NCBI GenBank assembly: GCA_027484265.1
Contig: JAIXTH010000215.1
Coordinates: 1 to 39,652, forward strand
Reading direction: 5' to 3'
DNA: 39,652 nt
From: Alphaproteobacteria bacterium
GTDB taxonomy: Bacteria; Pseudomonadota; Alphaproteobacteria; Caulobacterales; Aquidulcibacteraceae
Shown here: piece after piece, positions 9,845-20,120 of the stretch
Layout: every line of letters begins with the position of its first letter
Position numbering within the stretch: the stretch's first letter is position 1
Program-made: the position numbers and the translations under genes
Notes under the pieces: generated by a model
Database searches by the model: none
The model's input: the letters and a program-made list of their open reading frames with translations, nothing else
Told to the model about the DNA's origin: nothing

Positions 9845-10939
9845 ATGGCCACATCCGCATCGCGTCTTCCGCCCTGGACCCTTGCCGCCCCGGCCGCGGG
9901 TGTTCTGGCGTGCGTCGGCAGTGCGGTGGCGGACGGCGGCTGGCTGGTGGCAAGCCTGCTGGCTCTGGTGCTGATCGGCGTGGTGCTGGCGGCGGTGCAC
10001 CATGCCGAAGTGGTGGCGCACCGGGTGGGCGAGCCGTTCGGCACCTTCCTGTTCGCGGTGGCGGTGACGGTGATCGAAGTGGGCCTGATCGTCTCGATCA
10101 AGCTGGCGGGCGGGCCTGGTGCCGAGACGCTGGTGCGCGACACGGTGATGGCCGCCATCATGATCATTCTCAATGGCGTGGTGGGCATGTGCCTGCTGGT
10201 GGGCGGGCTGCGCCATGGCGAGCAGACCTATGTACAGACTGGCGTGTCGGCAGCGCTTGCCACGCTGGCGGCGCTGTCGGTGGTGGTGCTGATCCTGCCC
10301 AATCACGTCACCAGTCTCCCCGGCCCCTTGTTTGCGCCGGCGCAGCTGGCGTTCGTCGGGGTGGTGTCGTTCGTGCTCTACGCCACCTTCGTGCTGGTTC
10401 AGACCATCCGTCACCGCGACTATTTCCTGCCGGAGGACGAGCCGGAGCCGACCGGCGAGGCCACCCGCGCCCCGCTGCCGTCGGACCGGATGACGCTGGT
10501 CAGCGGCGGCCTGCTGCTGGTGTCACTGTGCGCCGTGGTGTGGCTGGCCAAGACACTGGCGCCCACCCTCGAGGGCATCGTCACCGGCGCCGGGCTGACC
10601 AAGGCCGTGGTGGGGGTTGCCATTGCAGGCCTCGTGCTGCTGCCCGAAGGGCTGGCGGCGGTGCGGGCAGCGCGGGCCAACCGGCTGCAGACCAGCCTGA
10701 ACCTGGCCATGGGATCGGCACTCGCCACCATCGGCCTGACGATCCCGGTGGTGGCAGCCCTGGCGCTGGTCTTCGACTGGCAGCTGGTGCTGGGGGTCAG
10801 CCAGACCAATACGGTGCTGCTGCTGCTGACCCTGCTGGTGGCGACCCTGTCGCTGTCCACCGGGCGCACCACCGTGATGCAGGGGGCGCTGCACCTGGTG
10901 CTGTTCGCGGTGTTCCTGTTCATGCTGGCAGTGCCGTGA
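9845..10939 (+). CDS. chaA: ChaA-type Ca2+/H+ (Na+/H+) antiporter
   Basis: A 364-aa protein with about eleven TM helices. The first CaCA repeat has VVLAAVHHAEVVAHRVGEPFGTFLFAVAVTVIEVGLIVS; the HHAE and EPFGT...AVTVIEV motifs are diagnostic of ChaA. The second repeat has VVGVAIAGLVLLPEGLAAVRAARANRLQTSLNLAMGSALATIGLTIP, with the PEG/NLAMGSALA equivalents. Between the repeats is a short acidic loop (FLPEDEPEPTGE). The ATG at 9845 has no clear Shine-Dalgarno; it lies 19 nt after the candidate riboswitch P1, so translational control is possible. The protein expels Ca2+ or Na+/K+ in exchange for protons at the cytoplasmic membrane. Confidence 0.93.
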   Translation: MATSASRLPPWTLAAPAAGVLACVGSAVADGGWLVASLLALVLIGVVLAAVHHAEVVAHRVGEPFGTFLFAVAVTVIEVGLIVSIKLAGGPGAETLVRDTVMAAIMIILNGVVGMCLLVGGLRHGEQTYVQTGVSAALATLAALSVVVLILPNHVTSLPGPLFAPAQLAFVGVVSFVLYATFVLVQTIRHRDYFLPEDEPEPTGEATRAPLPSDRMTLVSGGLLLVSLCAVVWLAKTLAPTLEGIVTGAGLTKAVVGVAIAGLVLLPEGLAAVRAARANRLQTSLNLAMGSALATIGLTIPVVAALALVFDWQLVLGVSQTNTVLLLLTLLVATLSLSTGRTTVMQGALHLVLFAVFLFMLAVP

Positions 10940-12255: not shown

Positions 12256-12276
12256 ATGCGGAGTAACCTGGCGTGA
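12256..12276 (+). CDS. six-codon leader ORF overlapping the luxR start
   Basis: ATG 12256 follows a purine-rich ribosome site (GGGGAGGGG, 12243-12251) and encodes MRSNLA. Its stop TGA (12274-12276) overlaps the luxR GTG (12273-12275) as GTGA. The luxR GTG itself has only a GGAG inside this mini-ORF. This arrangement would couple LuxR synthesis to translation of the leader. It may alternatively be a coincidence of an A/G-rich ribosome site. Confidence 0.4.
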   Translation: MRSNLA

Positions 12277-13001
12277 CTGCTGCGATCCTCTCCCGTGCTG
12301 CCGAGTTCATCAGCGCAACCCGGCGTGCGCCCTCCCTGTCGGACCTCGATGCGCTGTTCATGGCCGAGTGCGAACTGCTGGGTGTGGATCGTGCCGCCTC
12401 CGCCCGCATCGGCCACGTCGGGCGCCCGCTGAGCTTGGGCCGTGTGGTCGGACGCATCGACCAGGACTGGGTCAGCCGTTACCGGGACGAGCGCTTTGCC
12501 GAGCGCGACCCGGCAGCCCGCCGCGCAGTGGCCAGCCTGACACCGTTCTCGTGGGACGAGGCCGAGGAAGAGGCCGGTGACGATCCCGATGCCCGGGTGG
12601 TGTTTGGCGCCGCCCGCGAACATGATGACCGCTCGGGCTTTGTTGTGCCGGTGCACGGGGGCGACGGCTCCCTGGCGGTGGTGACGTTCCGGGGCCGGCA
12701 CATGTCGCTGGACCAGGAGGGCCGGTCCTACCTGCATCTGCTGGCGATCTATTTTCATATCGCAGTCGAGCGGCTGCGCCTGGTGGAACTGGCCAGCCAG
12801 CACCCGTCGATCACGCCCCGCCAGATCGAGTGTCTGAAGTGGGTCGCGGCCGGCAAGACCGACTGGGAAATCGGCAAGATCCTCGGACTGAGCGAGGCAA
12901 CCGTGAACCGGCATATCGAGCGCGCCAAGGAGCGCCTGGGTGTCCGCACCCGCGCCCAGGCTGTGGTTGGCGCAATGACGCATGGGATACTGGAGGTGTG
13001 A
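12273..13001 (+). CDS. LuxR-family quorum-sensing regulator
   Basis: A 242-aa protein. The N-terminal autoinducer-binding domain (about residues 15-165) keeps the usual AHL-pocket order: DWVSRYRDERF (65-75), RDP (78-80) and TPFSW (90-94). These correspond to the conserved Trp/Tyr, Asp and Trp of TraR-type receptors. The C-terminal GerE/LuxR HTH (about 180-235) reads TPRQIECLKWVAAGKTDWEIGKIL, then SEATVNRHIERAKERLG. The GTG start at 12273 gives the family's usual length. The gene is immediately upstream of luxI on the same strand, with 77 nt between. It probably binds AHL made by the neighbouring synthase and acts at the inverted repeats at 13010 and 15007. Confidence 0.92.
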   Translation: MTAAILSRAAEFISATRRAPSLSDLDALFMAECELLGVDRAASARIGHVGRPLSLGRVVGRIDQDWVSRYRDERFAERDPAARRAVASLTPFSWDEAEEEAGDDPDARVVFGAAREHDDRSGFVVPVHGGDGSLAVVTFRGRHMSLDQEGRSYLHLLAIYFHIAVERLRLVELASQHPSITPRQIECLKWVAAGKTDWEIGKILGLSEATVNRHIERAKERLGVRTRAQAVVGAMTHGILEV

Positions 13002-13009
13002 ATTCAGGC

Positions 13010-13054
13010 TGGTGGATTTCCACCAAGGGCAGACAGCCTCTGATGCACTAGACT
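13010..13054 (+). promoter_or_regulatory. lux-box-like operator and promoter of luxI
   Basis: TGGTGGA-TT-TCCACCA (13010-13025) is a perfect 7-bp inverted repeat. A TAGACT -10-like hexamer lies 23 nt further (13049-13054), predicting a transcript start near 13061. That puts the operator centre close to -43, the usual position of LuxR-type activator sites. luxI begins at 13079. The same arms recur at 15008-15023. Confidence 0.65.
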
Positions 13055-13078
13055 TCCTGATGAACCAGGAGGTCTCAC

Positions 13079-13852
13079 ATGATCCACGCTGTTACTGCTG
13101 CGAATGCCCCCCTTTACCGTGACCAGCTCGATCAGATGCACCGCATGCGCCATGACATGTATGTGGTCCAGCGCGGCTGGAGCGGGCTGAAGTCCGAGGA
13201 CGGTCGCGAGATCGACGAGTATGACACGGACGAAGCTGTCTATCTGATGAACCTGTCGCCGGAAGGCGAGCTGCTGGCGACGTTCCGGCTGATGCCGACC
13301 TCGTCGCCGTATCTGCTCCAGAAGCTGAGCCAGTTCGTGATCGGCGAGCCCCCGGCGTCGCCCAGGATCTGGGACATGACCCGGTGGATGATCGCGCCGG
13401 GCCAGCGCAAGAAGAAGGGCGAGGCGCGCAGCCAGGCCCAGGCCTTTCTGGCGTGCGGTCTGTTCGAGTTCGCGTGCACGCGCGGCCTCACGCACTACAC
13501 CACGCTGATGGACCTGCCGTTCCTGCCGCTGGTGGAGGCCGCCGGCTGGACCTACGAGCCGATCGGCCTGCCGATGCCCTATGAGGACGGCATGGGGATG
13601 GCGATCGCTGTCCGGATCGAAACCGGTGCCAAGGCGCTGGCGCATGTGCGGATGGTCTGCGAGATCGACCGCCCAGTGCTGTTCGAGGCGCCCCCGGCGA
13701 CCGCCGGTCTCGCGTCGGCCGACGTGATGGTGATGGCCAACATGATGGACGCCTACTATGCGATCCACGACGGCGGTGCGCGCGAGGTCCTCGGTGACCG
13801 CTGGATGAAGCTGGCAGCGACAGCCGGCTCCATCGCGAGCAACGCGGCCTGA
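13079..13852 (+). CDS. acyl-homoserine-lactone synthase (LuxI family)
   Basis: A 257-aa protein. The ATG at 13079 has AGGAGG about 6 nt upstream. Autoinducer-synthase landmarks are RMRHDMYVVQRGW (22-34), EIDEYDTDEAVYL (44-56), LLATFRLMPT (65-74), and WDMTRWMI (98-105), where D99 takes the place of the more common Glu. Then come LFEFACTRGLTHYTTLMDLPFLPLVEAAGW and AIAVRIETGAKALAHVR. The enzyme makes an AHL signal from S-adenosylmethionine and an acyl donor. It is about 45 residues longer at the C-terminus than typical LuxI proteins. It lies directly after luxR, and the lux-box-like repeat in its promoter implies positive feedback. A GC-rich hairpin follows the stop. Confidence 0.93.
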   Translation: MIHAVTAANAPLYRDQLDQMHRMRHDMYVVQRGWSGLKSEDGREIDEYDTDEAVYLMNLSPEGELLATFRLMPTSSPYLLQKLSQFVIGEPPASPRIWDMTRWMIAPGQRKKKGEARSQAQAFLACGLFEFACTRGLTHYTTLMDLPFLPLVEAAGWTYEPIGLPMPYEDGMGMAIAVRIETGAKALAHVRMVCEIDRPVLFEAPPATAGLASADVMVMANMMDAYYAIHDGGAREVLGDRWMKLAATAGSIASNAA

Positions 13853-13859
13853 TCCTGCT

Positions 13860-13881
13860 GCCGCGGGGCAAGCCCCGCGGC
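13860..13881 (+). terminator. hairpin after luxI
   Basis: GCCGCGGGGC-aa-GCCCCGCGGC is a 10-bp perfect inverted repeat starting 7 nt after the luxI stop. No T-run follows. Confidence 0.6.
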
Positions 13882-14054
13882 GGCTGGCCACCAGTGGATC
13901 GGCGGGACCGGGAGCCGGCAGGCCGTGTGCGCCTGCCGGCCCTGTCGTGCGTGCAGCGGCGCTTCGTCTCGCAGCCAGCGGCGGCAAGGTCCGGGAAGCA
14001 GGGTCCCGGTGGCAGGTCCTCTTTGCCACGGCGCGGTGCACGGCCCAAGCTGCA

Positions 14055-14552
14055 CGCCAGACCGGGCGCCGAACCTCGACCCTGGCCCCGAGTCCAACCC
14101 CGAGTCCAACCCCGAGTCTGACCCCAAGTCAGGACCCGCGACCGGCCCAAGGGGGTGAACCAGCGGTCTGGACGGGCGGGCTGAACCAGGGGTCTGGACC
14201 CAGGGGTCTGGCAGGAGACTGGCCCGAGGGTCCGGCCATGAGGTCTGGCCCCGAGTTTGACCCCGATTCTGACCCAGGTCCGGGCCGGAGACTGGCTCAG
14301 AGGTCTAGCCCCGAAGTCTGGCCCCGAAGCCTGGCATGGGCGCCAGGCAGGGAGCACCTTCATGGAACGGGCGCACGACTTTCCGCACCGTTTGGTCTGA
14401 GTCTGCAAGCCTGGAAGCCCGGGGCCTGCAAGCGCGGGGCCTGGCGGCGCGGGCGCTCCGGTTGCCCGTCATCGGGCCAAAGGTCGGGCCAAAGGTCGGG
14501 CTGACGATCGGGCCGGAGGTCGGGATGAAGTTCGGGTTGAAGACCGCCGGAT
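14055..14552. repeat. degenerate 12-bp tandem repeat array
   Basis: Most of the 890-nt gap between luxI and the 75-aa gene is built from imperfect 12-bp units. Block A (about 14067-14150) has AGTCCAACCCCG twice, then AGTCTGACCCCA and AGTCAGGACCCG in the same phase. Block B (14243-14339) has GTCTGGCCCCGA, GTTTGACCCCGA, TTCTGACCCAGG, GTCTAGCCCCGA and GTCTGGCCCCGA with a 1-nt slip. Block C (14471-14542) has six head-to-tail units, starting ATCGGGCCAAAG and GTCGGGCCAAAG. Short frames cross the blocks on both strands (for example PESN and VGPK repeats), but none spans the array with convincing composition. No transposase or known repeat family is recognised. Confidence 0.7.
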
Positions 14553-14743
14553 AACCGGTGCGGGCTGACAGGACCGTCTGGCCCTGCTGCTGACTGCCGA
14601 ACCGTCTGCTGCCGGCACCCATAGACCCCGGCTTGGTTGGGGGTGCTGTGCGAGCCCCCGCCGCATCAGCGCCTGGGCGCACACGTTCGGGCAGCCCGCC
14701 CGCGCCTGTGTTTCCGCAGCCAGCCCGAGGCCCCCTGACCGGA

Positions 14744-14971
14744 TCAGGTCTGGGTTTCGTCCGATCGGGCCGCGGAGATCGCGGCAACATGGGTCAGCAA
14801 CTCCTGCGGCGTCGTTGCCTGGATCAGCTCGATCAAGGCATAGGCGCGCAGTGCAATCAGCTCCGGCTGTTCAAGACGGAGTCGCTGGTTCAGCTCCGCA
14901 AGGGCCGTCTCGGCGATGAACCGGGACCGGTGAGCGGTGTGGACCGTTGATTTTGTATGGCTTGGCTTCAT
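14744..14971 (-). CDS. 75-aa protein, probably AHL-regulated
   Basis: A small soluble protein with a basic N-terminus (MKPSHTKSTVHTAHRSRF) and a helical body (AETALAELNQRLRL, ELIALRAYALIELIQATTPQELLTHVAAIS). It has no Cys, signal peptide or TM segment. I do not recognise a family. Support for the gene is the protein-like helical periodicity and its promoter: a lux-box-like repeat centred about 44 nt upstream with a TAGTAT -10 that would start the transcript at or next to the ATG, giving a leaderless message. It is convergent with luxI across the repeat array. It could be a quorum-regulated adaptor or a modulator of LuxR; this is inference. Confidence 0.6.
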   Translation of the reverse strand: MKPSHTKSTVHTAHRSRFIAETALAELNQRLRLEQPELIALRAYALIELIQATTPQELLTHVAAISAARSDETQT

Positions 14972-14977
14972 GAGACC

Positions 14978-15024
14978 ATACTAGGCCGCCGCCCCGGCCG
15001 GTGTCGTTGGTGGAAGTCCACCAA
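14978..15024 (-). promoter_or_regulatory. lux-box-like operator and promoter of the 75-aa gene
   Basis: TTGGTGGA-AG-TCCACCAA (15007-15024) is a perfect 8-bp inverted repeat. Its inner 14 arm bases are identical to the luxI operator. On the minus strand TAGTAT (14983-14978) follows 24 nt after the core repeat, against 23 nt at luxI. The rest of the 14972-15237 gap shows nothing certain. Confidence 0.6.
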
Positions 15025-15237: not shown

Positions 15238-16746
15238 TCAGATCGCCTGTGCAGGGCAGTATTGGCGCAGATAGTCGCCATGGGCCGGCATGTGCTGGAC
15301 GACAAAGCGGATCGACTGCTCGATGGCATCGAGCTCCTGCCGGGTGGATGGCTCCTTCAGGCTGTCGGCCATGGCATTGTGGCCGCCCATGGTGATCCCC
15401 TGTCCCATCATGACAGCCGCCCAGCTGGTCTCGGTGAACAGCTCGTCATCCTCCCGGAAGATCTGGCCGTTCTGCCGGAACAGGGTGGTCTTCTCGGTCA
15501 GGCTGTCGGGCACGCTCATGGTGCGGCAGTGGTTCCAGAACGGACTGTCGTCGCGGGAGGTGGCGTTGTAGTGCAGGATCAGGAAGTCGCGGATGCGCGC
15601 ATATTCCTTGCCGGTCAGGCGGTTGAAGGCATCCTCCTGCGCCTGGCTGATACCGTCCAGCGACAGAAGCGCGATCAGCTTGTTGATTCCGGTATTGATC
15701 AGGTGGATCGAGGTGGATTCCAGCGGCTCCATGAAGCCGGCTGCCAGGCCGAGGGCCACCACGTTCCGGTTCCAGAACTTCTTGCGCCGCCCGGTCACGA
15801 ACCGCAGGAAGTTGGGGTCTGCGCCCGGCTTGCCCGCCATGTTCCGCACCAGAATATCCAGCGCCTCGTCATCGCTCATGAAGCTGCTGCAATAGACATG
15901 GCCGTTGCCGTTGCGGTGCTGCAGGGGCACCTGCCACTGCCAGCCGGCGCTGTGCGCGGTGGCCCGTGTGTAGGGCAGGGGGCCGGAGCCGTCCTCGCGC
16001 ACGCACGGCAGCGCCACCGCCCGGTCACAGGGCAGATAGTGGCTCCAGTCCTCGTAGCCGGTCTTCAGGGCCTGCTCGATCAGCAGCCCGCGGAAGCCCG
16101 AGCAGTCGATGAAGAGGTCGCCGTGCAGGACATCGCCATTGTCCATGGTGACCGAGCGCACGAAGCCGTTGCCCGGATCGAGCGCCACATCCAGCACCTT
16201 GCCCTCCCGGCGCACCACCCCGCGCTGCTCGGCATAGGAGCGCAGGAAGCGGGCATACCGCCCTGCATCGAGGTGATAGGCATAGTTGATCGGCGGCAGG
16301 TCGTCGCGCTTGTAGTCGTCGGTGCGGGCGAACCGGCCAAAATGGGCGGCCATGGTCTCCATGTTGAAGACCTGGATGGGCCGCCTGTCGCCAGCCTGCC
16401 TGTACCGGTGCCAGACGTGATGGAACGACACCCCTTCCATCTGATAGCCGTAATTGCCGAAGGGGTGGATATAGCTGTCGCCCAGCTTGCCCCAGTTCAC
16501 GAACTGGATGCCCAGCTTGAAGCTGCCCTGCACGGCCGACAGCAGTTCGCGCTCGTCGATCTCCAGCAGGCGGTTGAAGTCGAGGAAGGGCGGGATGGTG
16601 GCCTCGCCAACACCCACGGTGCCGATCTGCTCGGATTCGACAACCGTGATGGCAACGGGCCGGCCGGCACGGATCCGCGACAGCGCCGCCGCTGCCATCC
16701 ATCCCGCTGTTCCCCCGCCCACGATGATGATGTGTTCGATCGGCAT
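15238..16746 (-). CDS. flavin-dependent tryptophan halogenase family protein
   Basis: From ATG 16746 the protein is 502 aa; ATG 16761 would add five residues. It has the FAD-binding GGGTAGW (10-16), GVGEATIP (45-52), the catalytic Lys position in SFKLGIQF (K77), and the halogenase signature WQWQVP (269-274, WxWxIP type). FMEPLESTSIHL (338-349) includes the catalytic Glu region. These are the PrnA/RebH-type features, so FADH2-dependent chlorination or bromination chemistry is possible. In alpha- and gammaproteobacteria many such genes sit beside TonB receptors in sugar-utilisation loci, where their substrate is unknown. It is divergent from the TonB receptor with two LacI-like operators between the genes, implying co-regulation. 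Confidence 0.9.
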   Translation of the reverse strand: MPIEHIIIVGGGTAGWMAAAALSRIRAGRPVAITVVESEQIGTVGVGEATIPPFLDFNRLLEIDERELLSAVQGSFKLGIQFVNWGKLGDSYIHPFGNYGYQMEGVSFHHVWHRYRQAGDRRPIQVFNMETMAAHFGRFARTDDYKRDDLPPINYAYHLDAGRYARFLRSYAEQRGVVRREGKVLDVALDPGNGFVRSVTMDNGDVLHGDLFIDCSGFRGLLIEQALKTGYEDWSHYLPCDRAVALPCVREDGSGPLPYTRATAHSAGWQWQVPLQHRNGNGHVYCSSFMSDDEALDILVRNMAGKPGADPNFLRFVTGRRKKFWNRNVVALGLAAGFMEPLESTSIHLINTGINKLIALLSLDGISQAQEDAFNRLTGKEYARIRDFLILHYNATSRDDSPFWNHCRTMSVPDSLTEKTTLFRQNGQIFREDDELFTETSWAAVMMGQGITMGGHNAMADSLKEPSTRQELDAIEQSIRFVVQHMPAHGDYLRQYCPAQAI

Positions 16747-16797
16747 ACCGTCCCCGCGCATCCGAAACCGCGCTGTCGATACCACAAACAACCGCTG

Positions 16798-16833: not shown

Positions 16834-16901
16834 TTTGACGTTAAGCCTTGGATCAAGGCGGGACTGATACCTGCCACGCACAGTACGTTTGGGAGGACAA
16901 C

Positions 16902-19900
16902 GTGGCTTCAAGGACCGTTATCGGGGCCGTGCGCCCGTCGCGCTGGCTGGCTCTGGCGACCGTTTCCGGGCTGGCGCTGGGCGCAGCGTGGGCCCAGCCC
17001 GCCCTGGCGCAGCAGGCCGCTGCCCAGCCCGCCGGGACCGAGCCCGCCGCAGCCACGCCCGAGGAGGCGCCGGTCGAGGAGGTGGTGGTGGTCACCGGCT
17101 TCCGCCGCTCGCTCCAGAACGCCCAGGGCATCAAGCGCGATGCCGATACCTTCATCGATGTGATCACCGCCGAGGACATCGGCGCGCTGCCGGACCGCTC
17201 GGTGGCAGAAGCGCTGCAGCGTGTGCCCGGCGTCAACATCTCGCGCTTCGAACAGCGCAACGACCCCGACCGGTTCTCGGTGGAGGGGTCCGGCGTGATC
17301 ATCCGCGGCCTGCCGTTCGTGCGCTCAGAGCTGAACGGGCGCGATATCTTCTCGGCCAATGGCGGCCGCGAGCTGTCGTTCAACGATGTGTCTCCCGAGC
17401 TGCTGGGCCGGGTGGAGGTGTTCAAGAACAGCACCGCCGACATGATCGACGGCGGGATCTCGGGCACGGTCAACCTCGTCACCCGCAAGCCACTGGACCG
17501 GCTGGGCCCGCAGCTGGCCGGGACGCTGGAAGGCAATTATGGCGACATGGCCCAGCAATGGTCGCCGGGCTTCTCGCTGCTGGCGTCCAACACGTTCGAG
17601 ACATCGGCCGGCACGTTCGGCATCCAGGTGGCCTATGCCCAGTCCGAGCTGATCACCCGCACCGATGCCTCCCAGGTCACCGACCCCTGCTACCGGGCTC
17701 CGTCGCTGGATGCGGCCTGTCTGCGGGTCCGTCCGGTGGGGTCGGGCGGCTTCAGCGGCGGCAACCAGTTCAGCAGCACCACCTTCCCGCCTGCCAACGC
17801 GGTGTTCGTGCCGAAGGGCGCCGGTGTGCGCACCACCGACCTCAGCCGCGACCGTGACGCACTGTCCGTGGTCGGACAGTGGGAAAGCACGGACCGGAAG
17901 TTCCTGGTCACCCTCGAGTATCTCAGCGCCGAGACTGCGGCGACCCTCAACGAATTCGCGGTCCTGGCGCTGGTGAACGATGACGGCCTGTTCCCGGTCA
18001 TCGCCCCCGGCACCACCCCTGTGTTCGCCGGCCGCCAGTTCGTGTCCGGTACCCTCACCCAGCTGCAGCCCTTCACCGGCGGGCGCGGCATTCCAACCGA
18101 GCTGCTGCGCTTCCAGCGCGAGGACACGGCGCGGACCGAGGATATCTCGTTCCAGGTCAAGTACGACCCCACCGACCGGCTGAGCTTCAATTTCGAGCTG
18201 CAGCGCATCGAGTCCGATCGCACGGAAGATGGCTTCATCTCGGCGATGCAGACCTACACCGATGTGTTCATCGACAATTCGGGCGACACGCCGCTGGTCC
18301 GCTTCCTGCAGCCCGGCTCGGCCAACTCGCCGTCCGCCTATTTCAACGACCCGTCGCGGACCTTCTACTGGTTCCTGATCGACAATCAGGTCAAGAATGA
18401 AGGCAGCCTGACCAGTGCCCGTCTGGATGGCGAATATGCCCTCAGCGACACCGGTTTCATCCGGAAGATCCGCTTTGGCGCCCGCTGGGGCGACCGCAAC
18501 CGGGTCACCCGCAGCGCCAACTTCTCGAACTGGGGCAATCTGGGCGCGCCCTGGACCGGACGCGGCGGCAACTGGAACTGCGGCGACTTCCAGGCTTTTG
18601 GCTGTGGCGGCGCCTATGTGCGTGACTTCCCGGGCTCGGCGCAGGTGCGCAATCCGTTCGGCGACAGCTTCCAGCGCGGCAATGCGCCGGTGCCACTGGG
18701 CGACGGCTCGGCGTTCTTCTTCGGAAGCGACAACATGGTGGCCGACTATCTCAGCGGCGCGATCCGCACGCAGGCCAATGCGATCACCGCCTCCACCCTG
18801 ACCCCCAATGCCTGGTTCCCGATCTCGGCAAGAACCAATGCGCTGCCGGGCGGCCCCTGGACCCAGGGCGAGATCTCCGATGTCGGCGAGAAAACCAGCG
18901 CCCTCTACATGCAGGTCGATTTCGGCCACGACTTTGGCAGCGACATCACGCTGAGCGGCAATCTCGGCCTGCGCTATGTCAAGACCACGGTTGAGAGCGC
19001 TGGCTCGATCGCCTTCCCCACCGGCCAGTTCTTCGACGCACCGCCGAACGGCAATGGCGACAACGTTGTCTCCGTGGCCGAACTGCAGGGGGCCTGCGCC
19101 CGTGTCCAGCCCGGACAGGTGGCACCTGGCTATTGCGGCCTGTCGGCGACCCGGCTGGCGGAGTTCGCCCGGGTCTTCACCGGCGAGCTGATTGACGACA
19201 GCGCCGATATCGAATGGGACAACTGGCTGCCCAGCCTCAATGTCAGGGTCGACTTCGGCAACGGCATGCTGGTGCGCGGTGCGATCTCGAAGGGGATCTC
19301 GCGGCCCGACCTGTCGGCCTTCGCCACCGGCGGCGGCATTTTCGACAACACCGGCAACCTGCGTGCAGGCGGCACCCTCGCCACCGGACCGCTGTTCGCC
19401 ATCGGAACGGGCAACCGTCTGCTGCGGCCGGTCGAAGCCTGGAGCTATGACTTCTCGTTCGAATGGTACTTTGCGCGGGTCGGCTCGATCGTGCTCTCGG
19501 GCTTCGTGAAGGAGATCGAAGGCATCGTGAATGGCGGCGCCAATGTCCGCAGCTTCACCAGCCCGCGCGGGGTCACGACCGATGTCCTGGTCAATGGGCC
19601 GGTGAACAGCGATGGCGGGACGCTGAAGGGCTTCGAGCTGTCGTACCAGCAGACCTACGACTTCCTGCCGGGCCTCCTGAGCGGGCTGGGTGCCCAGTTC
19701 ACCTACACCTATGTCGATGCAGGCAGCTTCGGAAACGCGACCCTGGGGGCCGAGCAGAGCCCGTTTGCCGGCGGACTTCCGCTGGCGGGCGTCTCCGAGC
19801 ACACGGTCAATGCGGTTCTCTTCTACGAGCACGGACCGCTTGCCGCGCGCCTTGCCTACAACTGGCGGTCCGAGTTCCTGCAGACGCCGCGTGACGTGAT

Positions 19901-20120
19901 CTTCCCGTTCTCGCCCATCTACGGCGAGAGCACCGGCCAGCTGGACGGGTCGATCTTCTATACCATCAATGACCAGTTCAAGGTGGGCATCCAGGGCGTG
20001 AACCTGCTGGATGAAGTCACGCAGACAACCCAGGTGATCGACTTTGCGGGCACCCGCTCGACCCGCTCTGCGTTCCGCAATGACAGGCGCTTCACGGTGA
20101 TGGTGCGGTACGAGTACTGA
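16902..20120 (+). CDS. TonB-dependent outer-membrane receptor (carbohydrate type)
   Basis: I choose GTG at 16902, preceded by GGGAGGACAAC, rather than the ATG at 16848; the product is 1072 aa. A signal peptide ends near ALAQQ (about residue 36). A Pro/Ala/Glu linker leads to a TonB-box-like VEEVVVVTGFRRSLQNA. The plug domain has AEDIGALPDRSVAEALQRVPGV, VIIRGLPFVRSELNGRDIFS and VEVFKNSTADMIDGGISGTVNLVTRKP. A long beta-barrel follows, ending in the aromatic terminus RRFTVMVRYEY. The size and plug sequence match the sphingomonad/Caulobacter receptors that take up oligosaccharides. Together with the GH16 and GH3 genes, beta-glucan oligomers are the likely cargo; that is inference. It is divergent from the halogenase gene. 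Confidence 0.95.
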   Translation: MASRTVIGAVRPSRWLALATVSGLALGAAWAQPALAQQAAAQPAGTEPAAATPEEAPVEEVVVVTGFRRSLQNAQGIKRDADTFIDVITAEDIGALPDRSVAEALQRVPGVNISRFEQRNDPDRFSVEGSGVIIRGLPFVRSELNGRDIFSANGGRELSFNDVSPELLGRVEVFKNSTADMIDGGISGTVNLVTRKPLDRLGPQLAGTLEGNYGDMAQQWSPGFSLLASNTFETSAGTFGIQVAYAQSELITRTDASQVTDPCYRAPSLDAACLRVRPVGSGGFSGGNQFSSTTFPPANAVFVPKGAGVRTTDLSRDRDALSVVGQWESTDRKFLVTLEYLSAETAATLNEFAVLALVNDDGLFPVIAPGTTPVFAGRQFVSGTLTQLQPFTGGRGIPTELLRFQREDTARTEDISFQVKYDPTDRLSFNFELQRIESDRTEDGFISAMQTYTDVFIDNSGDTPLVRFLQPGSANSPSAYFNDPSRTFYWFLIDNQVKNEGSLTSARLDGEYALSDTGFIRKIRFGARWGDRNRVTRSANFSNWGNLGAPWTGRGGNWNCGDFQAFGCGGAYVRDFPGSAQVRNPFGDSFQRGNAPVPLGDGSAFFFGSDNMVADYLSGAIRTQANAITASTLTPNAWFPISARTNALPGGPWTQGEISDVGEKTSALYMQVDFGHDFGSDITLSGNLGLRYVKTTVESAGSIAFPTGQFFDAPPNGNGDNVVSVAELQGACARVQPGQVAPGYCGLSATRLAEFARVFTGELIDDSADIEWDNWLPSLNVRVDFGNGMLVRGAISKGISRPDLSAFATGGGIFDNTGNLRAGGTLATGPLFAIGTGNRLLRPVEAWSYDFSFEWYFARVGSIVLSGFVKEIEGIVNGGANVRSFTSPRGVTTDVLVNGPVNSDGGTLKGFELSYQQTYDFLPGLLSGLGAQFTYTYVDAGSFGNATLGAEQSPFAGGLPLAGVSEHTVNAVLFYEHGPLAARLAYNWRSEFLQTPRDVIFPFSPIYGESTGQLDGSIFYTINDQFKVGIQGVNLLDEVTQTTQVIDFAGTRSTRSAFRNDRRFTVMVRYEY

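Follow-up and report, generated by a model that had tools for sequence, protein, structure and literature searches.

How a LuxR-LuxI circuit is wired to the genes around it is the question raised by a locus of an alphaproteobacterium of the family Aquidulcibacteraceae, which we analyzed within a window comprising the whole stretch of 39,652 nucleotides. The original prediction held that the same palindromic repeat precedes both luxI and a 75-codon open reading frame (ORF) facing it, and that the adjacent LuxR together with its acyl-homoserine lactone (AHL) activates both genes. The relevant features are the following, in window coordinates:

12273 to 13001, plus strand: luxR, 242 aa, with AHL-binding domain (Autoind_bind, PF03472, E=2.8e-23) and GerE/LuxR helix-turn-helix (PF00196, E=5.6e-16; both Pfam)
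13010 to 13025, no strand: box 1, TGGTGGATTTCCACCA, putative LuxR operator of luxI, between the luxR end (13001) and the luxI ATG (13079)
13049 to 13054, plus strand: -10-like hexamer TAGACT, 23 nt after box 1 (sequence, promoter alignment), with a start inferred near 13061
13079 to 13852, plus strand: luxI, AHL synthase, 257 aa (PF00765, E=2.8e-18, Pfam)
13854 to 13887, no strand: strong G+C-rich hairpin without T run (inverted repeat I3) just after luxI, possible terminator
14744 to 14971, minus strand: orphan ORF of 75 aa, convergent with luxI (composition and codon scores; all-helical AlphaFold2 model with three helices)
14978 to 14983, minus strand: -10-like hexamer TAGTAT, 24 nt after box 2 (sequence, promoter alignment)
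15007 to 15024, no strand: box 2, perfect 18-bp palindrome TTGGTGGAAGTCCACCAA, putative LuxR operator of the 75-aa gene

The locus encodes an AHL circuit, with all three Pfam domains above their cut-offs and luxR lying next to the AHL synthase gene; luxI has a ribosome-binding site AGGAGG at about 13067-13072, and the recognition helix of this LuxR reads ...SEATVNRHIERAKERLGVRTRAQAV. A second protein resembling this LuxR is encoded elsewhere in the genome (locus L138, G000:C248). Degenerate direct repeats of 12 bp and longer (CCCCGAGTCCAA type) occupy 14070-14330, in the space that separates luxI from the 75-aa gene. Directly beyond box 2, a tryptophan-halogenase family gene (15238-16773, minus strand) diverges from a TonB-dependent-receptor-like gene (16899-20120, plus strand), and on the other side of the circuit an Rfam terC RNA (RF03067; 9623-9685, minus strand) lies just upstream of a gene for a TerC-like membrane protein.

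The two palindromes, which lie about 2 kb apart, were recovered exactly where they had been predicted, and all 14 of 14 arm bases are common to both. They share the core motif TGGTGGA-N2-TCCACCA (in box 2 this 16-bp core occupies 15008-15023); the start codon of luxI follows the first at 53 bp, and the 75-aa ORF follows the second at 35 bp. Although lux-box-like, the repeat does not fit the textbook consensus NNCT-N12-AGNN (PMC7432010), which calls for a dyad of 20 bp that has CT in positions 3-4 and AG in positions 17-18: The 20-mers on the same dyads are GCTGGTGG...CCACCAAG and GTTGGTGG...CCACCAAG with TG at positions 3-4, so that both boxes differ from a canonical lux box at the CT/AG positions. 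No description of this operator was found in the literature that we searched. The departure from the textbook motif speaks for the view that the palindromes are chance occurrences or sites of a different regulator that has no relation to LuxR.

Against this view stands, first, the rarity of the motif as determined by pattern search and a second-order Markov model built from the window. The genome (3,065,071 bases in 326 contigs), the sole representative of its genus among those searched, contains exactly 2 copies of TGGTGGA-N2-TCCACCA where about 0.02 (0.021) are expected, and the 7 matches with up to 3 mismatches inside the window exceed the number in each of 100 shuffles. The extended motif TTGGTGGANNTYCACCA was found in only 2 of 398 genomes of the order, namely at both sites of this genome and beside luxI in one genome of the sister genus g6 (same family). 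Four copies with one mismatch elsewhere in the genome all fall inside long ORFs and were dismissed as further sites; 24 stretches with exact boxes among 2.9 million viral contigs were taken as chance.

The second argument comes from the recurrence of the box exclusively at this lineage of luxRI circuits. Four species of g6 (G061, G014, G033, and G005) carry orthologous luxR-luxI genes, with 55-57% identity for LuxI and 45-49% for the LuxR proteins encoded next to it. In three of these species, a box TTGGTGGATTYTCACCAA is located about 400 bp downstream of luxI and some 58 bp before a gene of 101-108 codons that converges on luxI, with a tail-to-tail overlap of 14 bp in G061 and G014. In the opposite direction, the same box lies upstream of a gene for a 143-aa protein with weak similarity to 4HBT (hotdog thioesterase) proteins, which is followed by a gene for an 81-aa protein. 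The box and both genes are found on another contig in G005, with an IS66-type element beside the small gene, so that a box precedes the small gene in 4/4 g6 species with orthologous luxRI. In G033, the box-controlled hotdog gene (L038, about 9861-10292) has an in-frame stop and may be a pseudogene. A box-like match near luxI of G020 was dismissed because it lies inside a response-regulator-like ORF.

The luxI-linked small proteins of g6 are 56-87% identical to one another. They are predicted to be helical, yielded no significant fold match, and the luxI-linked copy matches no known family. The g6 species that we inspected, some of which lack this luxRI, also encode a paralogue at a core locus. 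TTGGTGN6CACCAA is absent from the eight core loci of this paralogous gene, 4/8 of which belong to species with no such luxRI, and the box in g6 therefore goes only with the luxRI-linked copy. Neighbors of the core paralogue (L061, L062, L067) include isochorismatase-like, GNAT-like, LysR-like, XRE-like (PraR/HipB type by eye), and metK-like genes.

The interval between luxR and luxI holds no box before luxI in any of the four g6 species. At this place (L036-L039; e.g., about 2290-2315 of L037) G005 and G033 show a sigma-54-promoter-like TGGCACG-N4-TTGCA, and G061 and G014 show variants of it. Judging from this resemblance, luxI of g6 may be driven by RpoN. In genus g40 of another family, where LuxI is 50-53% identical, a box does precede luxI in four species (TGGTGGATTTCCATCA in three, TGATGGATTTCCATCA in one); second g40 sites TGATGGAATTCCATCA were rejected since they lie inside ORFs in the two loci viewed. 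The operator is thus present at luxI in two genera and absent there in a third, and it stands at a small gene beside luxI in two genera. Since the g6 and g40 sites each stem from close relatives, these occurrences are not fully independent.

Third, the boxes pair with a particular type of LuxR. The LuxR of g40 is not encoded beside luxI and is only 35% identical to the one studied here over its best-matching part, and the recognition helix of the best g40 candidate, ...PTVNRHVEMAKKRIGVRSR, is close to ...ATVNRHIERAKERLGVRTR of this genome and ...ATVNRHVERAKERIGVRTR of g6. A TVNRH helix is common to the LuxR proteins of this genome, g6, and g40, while those read from box-less relatives differ at these positions. 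Across three genera and two families, LuxR proteins with a TVNRHxExAKxRxGVR helix pair with TGGTGGA-type boxes, which by sequence is a lineage-specific pairing.

Promoter layout agrees with this picture. An alignment of the box-bearing promoters of this genome, g6, and g40 revealed a TA-rich -10-like hexamer 23-25 nt after each box. If transcription starts 6-7 nt past the hexamer, the operator centers fall near -43 or -44, in good agreement with the originally proposed position near -43, and a class-II placement of both boxes near -43 is a fair inference from the computed spacing. At luxI, this arrangement (box 1 with a hexamer 23 nt downstream, relative to a predicted start) is kept in g40. 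For the 75-aa ORF, a start 6-7 nt past TAGTAT would fall at 14971-14972, i.e., at its ATG. Because an in-frame TAG at 14983-14981, itself part of TAGTAT, precedes the ORF, its translation cannot begin ahead of the ATG at 14971, in keeping with an mRNA that would be leaderless or nearly so. It is mainly on account of the promoter layout and the shared recognition helix that we regard the box as operator of this LuxR lineage: The palindrome very probably serves the adjacent LuxR, with class-II placement at luxI as well as at the 75-aa gene. Chance or a foreign regulator appears very improbable in comparison.

What would lie under the control of box 2 is a small orphan. Homologues of the 75-aa protein were sought in 60 relatives, the 398 genomes of the order, genome contigs, viral contigs, and plasmids, and none were significant; nor did Pfam (no match at E<=1), NCBIfam (none at E<=0.1), PHROGs, PDB sequences (none better than E=0.2), or PDB folds return anything significant. 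The amino-acid composition score of the ORF (0.184) is near the median of this genome's real proteins and higher than in any of 165 shadow ORFs of comparable length. The codon score likewise exceeds those of all 165 shadow ORFs, yet ranks in the lower half among real genes, and the frame-averaged value is no more than neutral, at -0.07 bits per codon. A moderate score in the coding test was also obtained for one control ORF from intergenic sequence. Composition, rather than any homologue, argues that the ORF is probably coding. A single-sequence AlphaFold2 model of modest confidence (pLDDT 70, pTM 0.38) consists of three helices and gave no significant fold match, and no helix-turn-helix was recognized or matched among families of this kind. 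We also considered the 75-aa protein as a relative of the small g6 protein and rejected this idea: There is no detectable sequence similarity (hmmsearch against the g6 101-108-aa family gave -1.4 bits, beaten by several of 193 scored shuffles, and hhalign a probability of 0.1%), and the predicted helix lengths differ too.

The convergent layout, seen here as well as in g6 with its 14-bp overlap in G061 and G014, would also suit a scenario in which box 2 works through the transcript or the act of transcription, running antisense towards luxI and damping it, with the ORF being incidental. Antisense damping of luxI may occur in g6 given the overlap, but is less plausible here where 891 bp and the strong hairpin part the ORF from luxI, and the small gene of g6 shows conservation at the protein level (at the identities given above for the luxI-linked copies). 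We therefore rate this scenario as distinctly unlikely.

If box 2 instead serves a protein, as we prefer, two roles can be envisaged for the product, and we consider modulator and effector about equally probable. A plain quorum-sensing effector without feedback on the circuit would resemble the output-like genes controlled by the box in g6, which include the hotdog (thioesterase-like) gene and the one for the 81-aa protein, although the placement against luxI and the recurrence of a small gene there weakly suggest a circuit role; such an effector is conceivable, but we would not favor it over all other readings taken together. Alternatively, the protein could set a threshold or provide negative feedback by inhibiting LuxR like TraM (PMC7856919), repressing luxI like RsaL (PMC10746200), or freeing another regulator like CinS, which acts alongside CinI (PMC4149787). 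Its small size, its predicted helical fold, the putative control by a LuxR box, and the gene's position next to luxI would all be in line with this role, and so would the second, unrelated small helical gene at the same place in g6. Conversely, the 75-aa protein is not conserved, has no sequence or fold match to known modulators, and has no recognized helix-turn-helix, so that we view a feedback function as tentative and rather doubtful. Still less likely, in our estimation, is the broader proposal that a LuxR lineage with a non-canonical operator repeatedly recruits unrelated small helical luxI-convergent genes as feedback proteins, with the slot being kept and the protein replaced.

Overall, we consider it likely that the palindromes are operators of the adjacent LuxR and that this LuxR activates both luxI and the small gene. 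LuxR-AHL would bind both boxes centered near -43, over the -35 region, in a class-II mode of activation, and thereby switch on luxI in a positive feedback; at the same cell density, it would also turn on the small gene that points towards the 3' end of luxI. The genes under the operator appear to have been swapped between lineages, with luxI and the orphan 75-aa gene here, a different small gene and the divergent hotdog gene in g6, and luxI in g40. A role of the small helical protein as circuit modulator (compare TraM, RsaL, and CinS) rather than effector would be speculative. Of the original prediction, the operator reading thus holds at both genes by virtue of rarity, recurrence, layout, and recognition helix, but autoinduction of luxI through the box is not general, as the four g6 species lack it. 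A lack of box conservation in relatives, named beforehand as a refuting outcome, was not observed: The box is kept at luxI in g40 and at the luxI-convergent small gene in g6. The 75-aa gene itself is not conserved. These results point to a specific operator and its putative regulator, testable as a pair, in an AHL lineage so far unstudied; the two exact sites of this genome are predicted to be the strongest direct targets, and the shifting gene partners of the operator display a rewiring of the circuit between genera. If the small genes are modulators, a single circuit would have recruited small feedback proteins independently.

A LuxR-controlled small modulator next to luxI would not be new as a type, contrary to the original suggestion, given the precedents of RsaL (PMC10746200) and CinS (PMC4149787). 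TraM, RsaL, and RsaM are named as down-regulating elements in a survey of how AHL genes are arranged (PMC3386692). RsaL is a LuxR-controlled regulator encoded next to the synthase gene, and in the lasR-rsaL-lasI system of Pseudomonas aeruginosa a LuxR-type activator with its AHL turns on both the synthase gene and this adjacent regulator gene (PMC10746200). However, rsaL and lasI share one bidirectional promoter, whereas the locus described here has two separate boxes 2 kb apart, and its 75-aa gene lies beyond the 3' end of luxI in convergent orientation. RsaL, moreover, acts as a DNA-binding repressor, whereas the 75-aa protein has no recognizable DNA-binding domain and matches no helix-turn-helix family. 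In cinR-cinI-cinS of Rhizobium leguminosarum, as putatively here, a small protein is under the control of a LuxR-type regulator (CinR) and made together with the AHL synthase (PMC4149787), but cinS is co-transcribed with cinI while the small gene here is preceded by a separate box and runs on the strand opposite luxI. CinS binds PraR, a repressor. TraM, the anti-activator of traR-traI-traM on Ti plasmids, is likewise a small protein that partners a LuxR-type regulator of Alphaproteobacteria, in this case TraR (PMC7856919), but the 75-aa protein matched no Pfam family, TraM included, and gave no NCBIfam or PDB sequence match at the thresholds given above. Loci of sphingomonads (Novosphingobium) share the tandem luxR-luxI arrangement and a convergent gene downstream of luxI, phyH, that was proposed to be quorum-regulated (PMC3704786), though the neighbor here is a small orphan with a recognizable operator and not a phytanoyl-CoA dioxygenase. 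The control logic is thus already known from RsaL and CinS, and what appears to be new are this operator and the lineage-specific genes that it would control.
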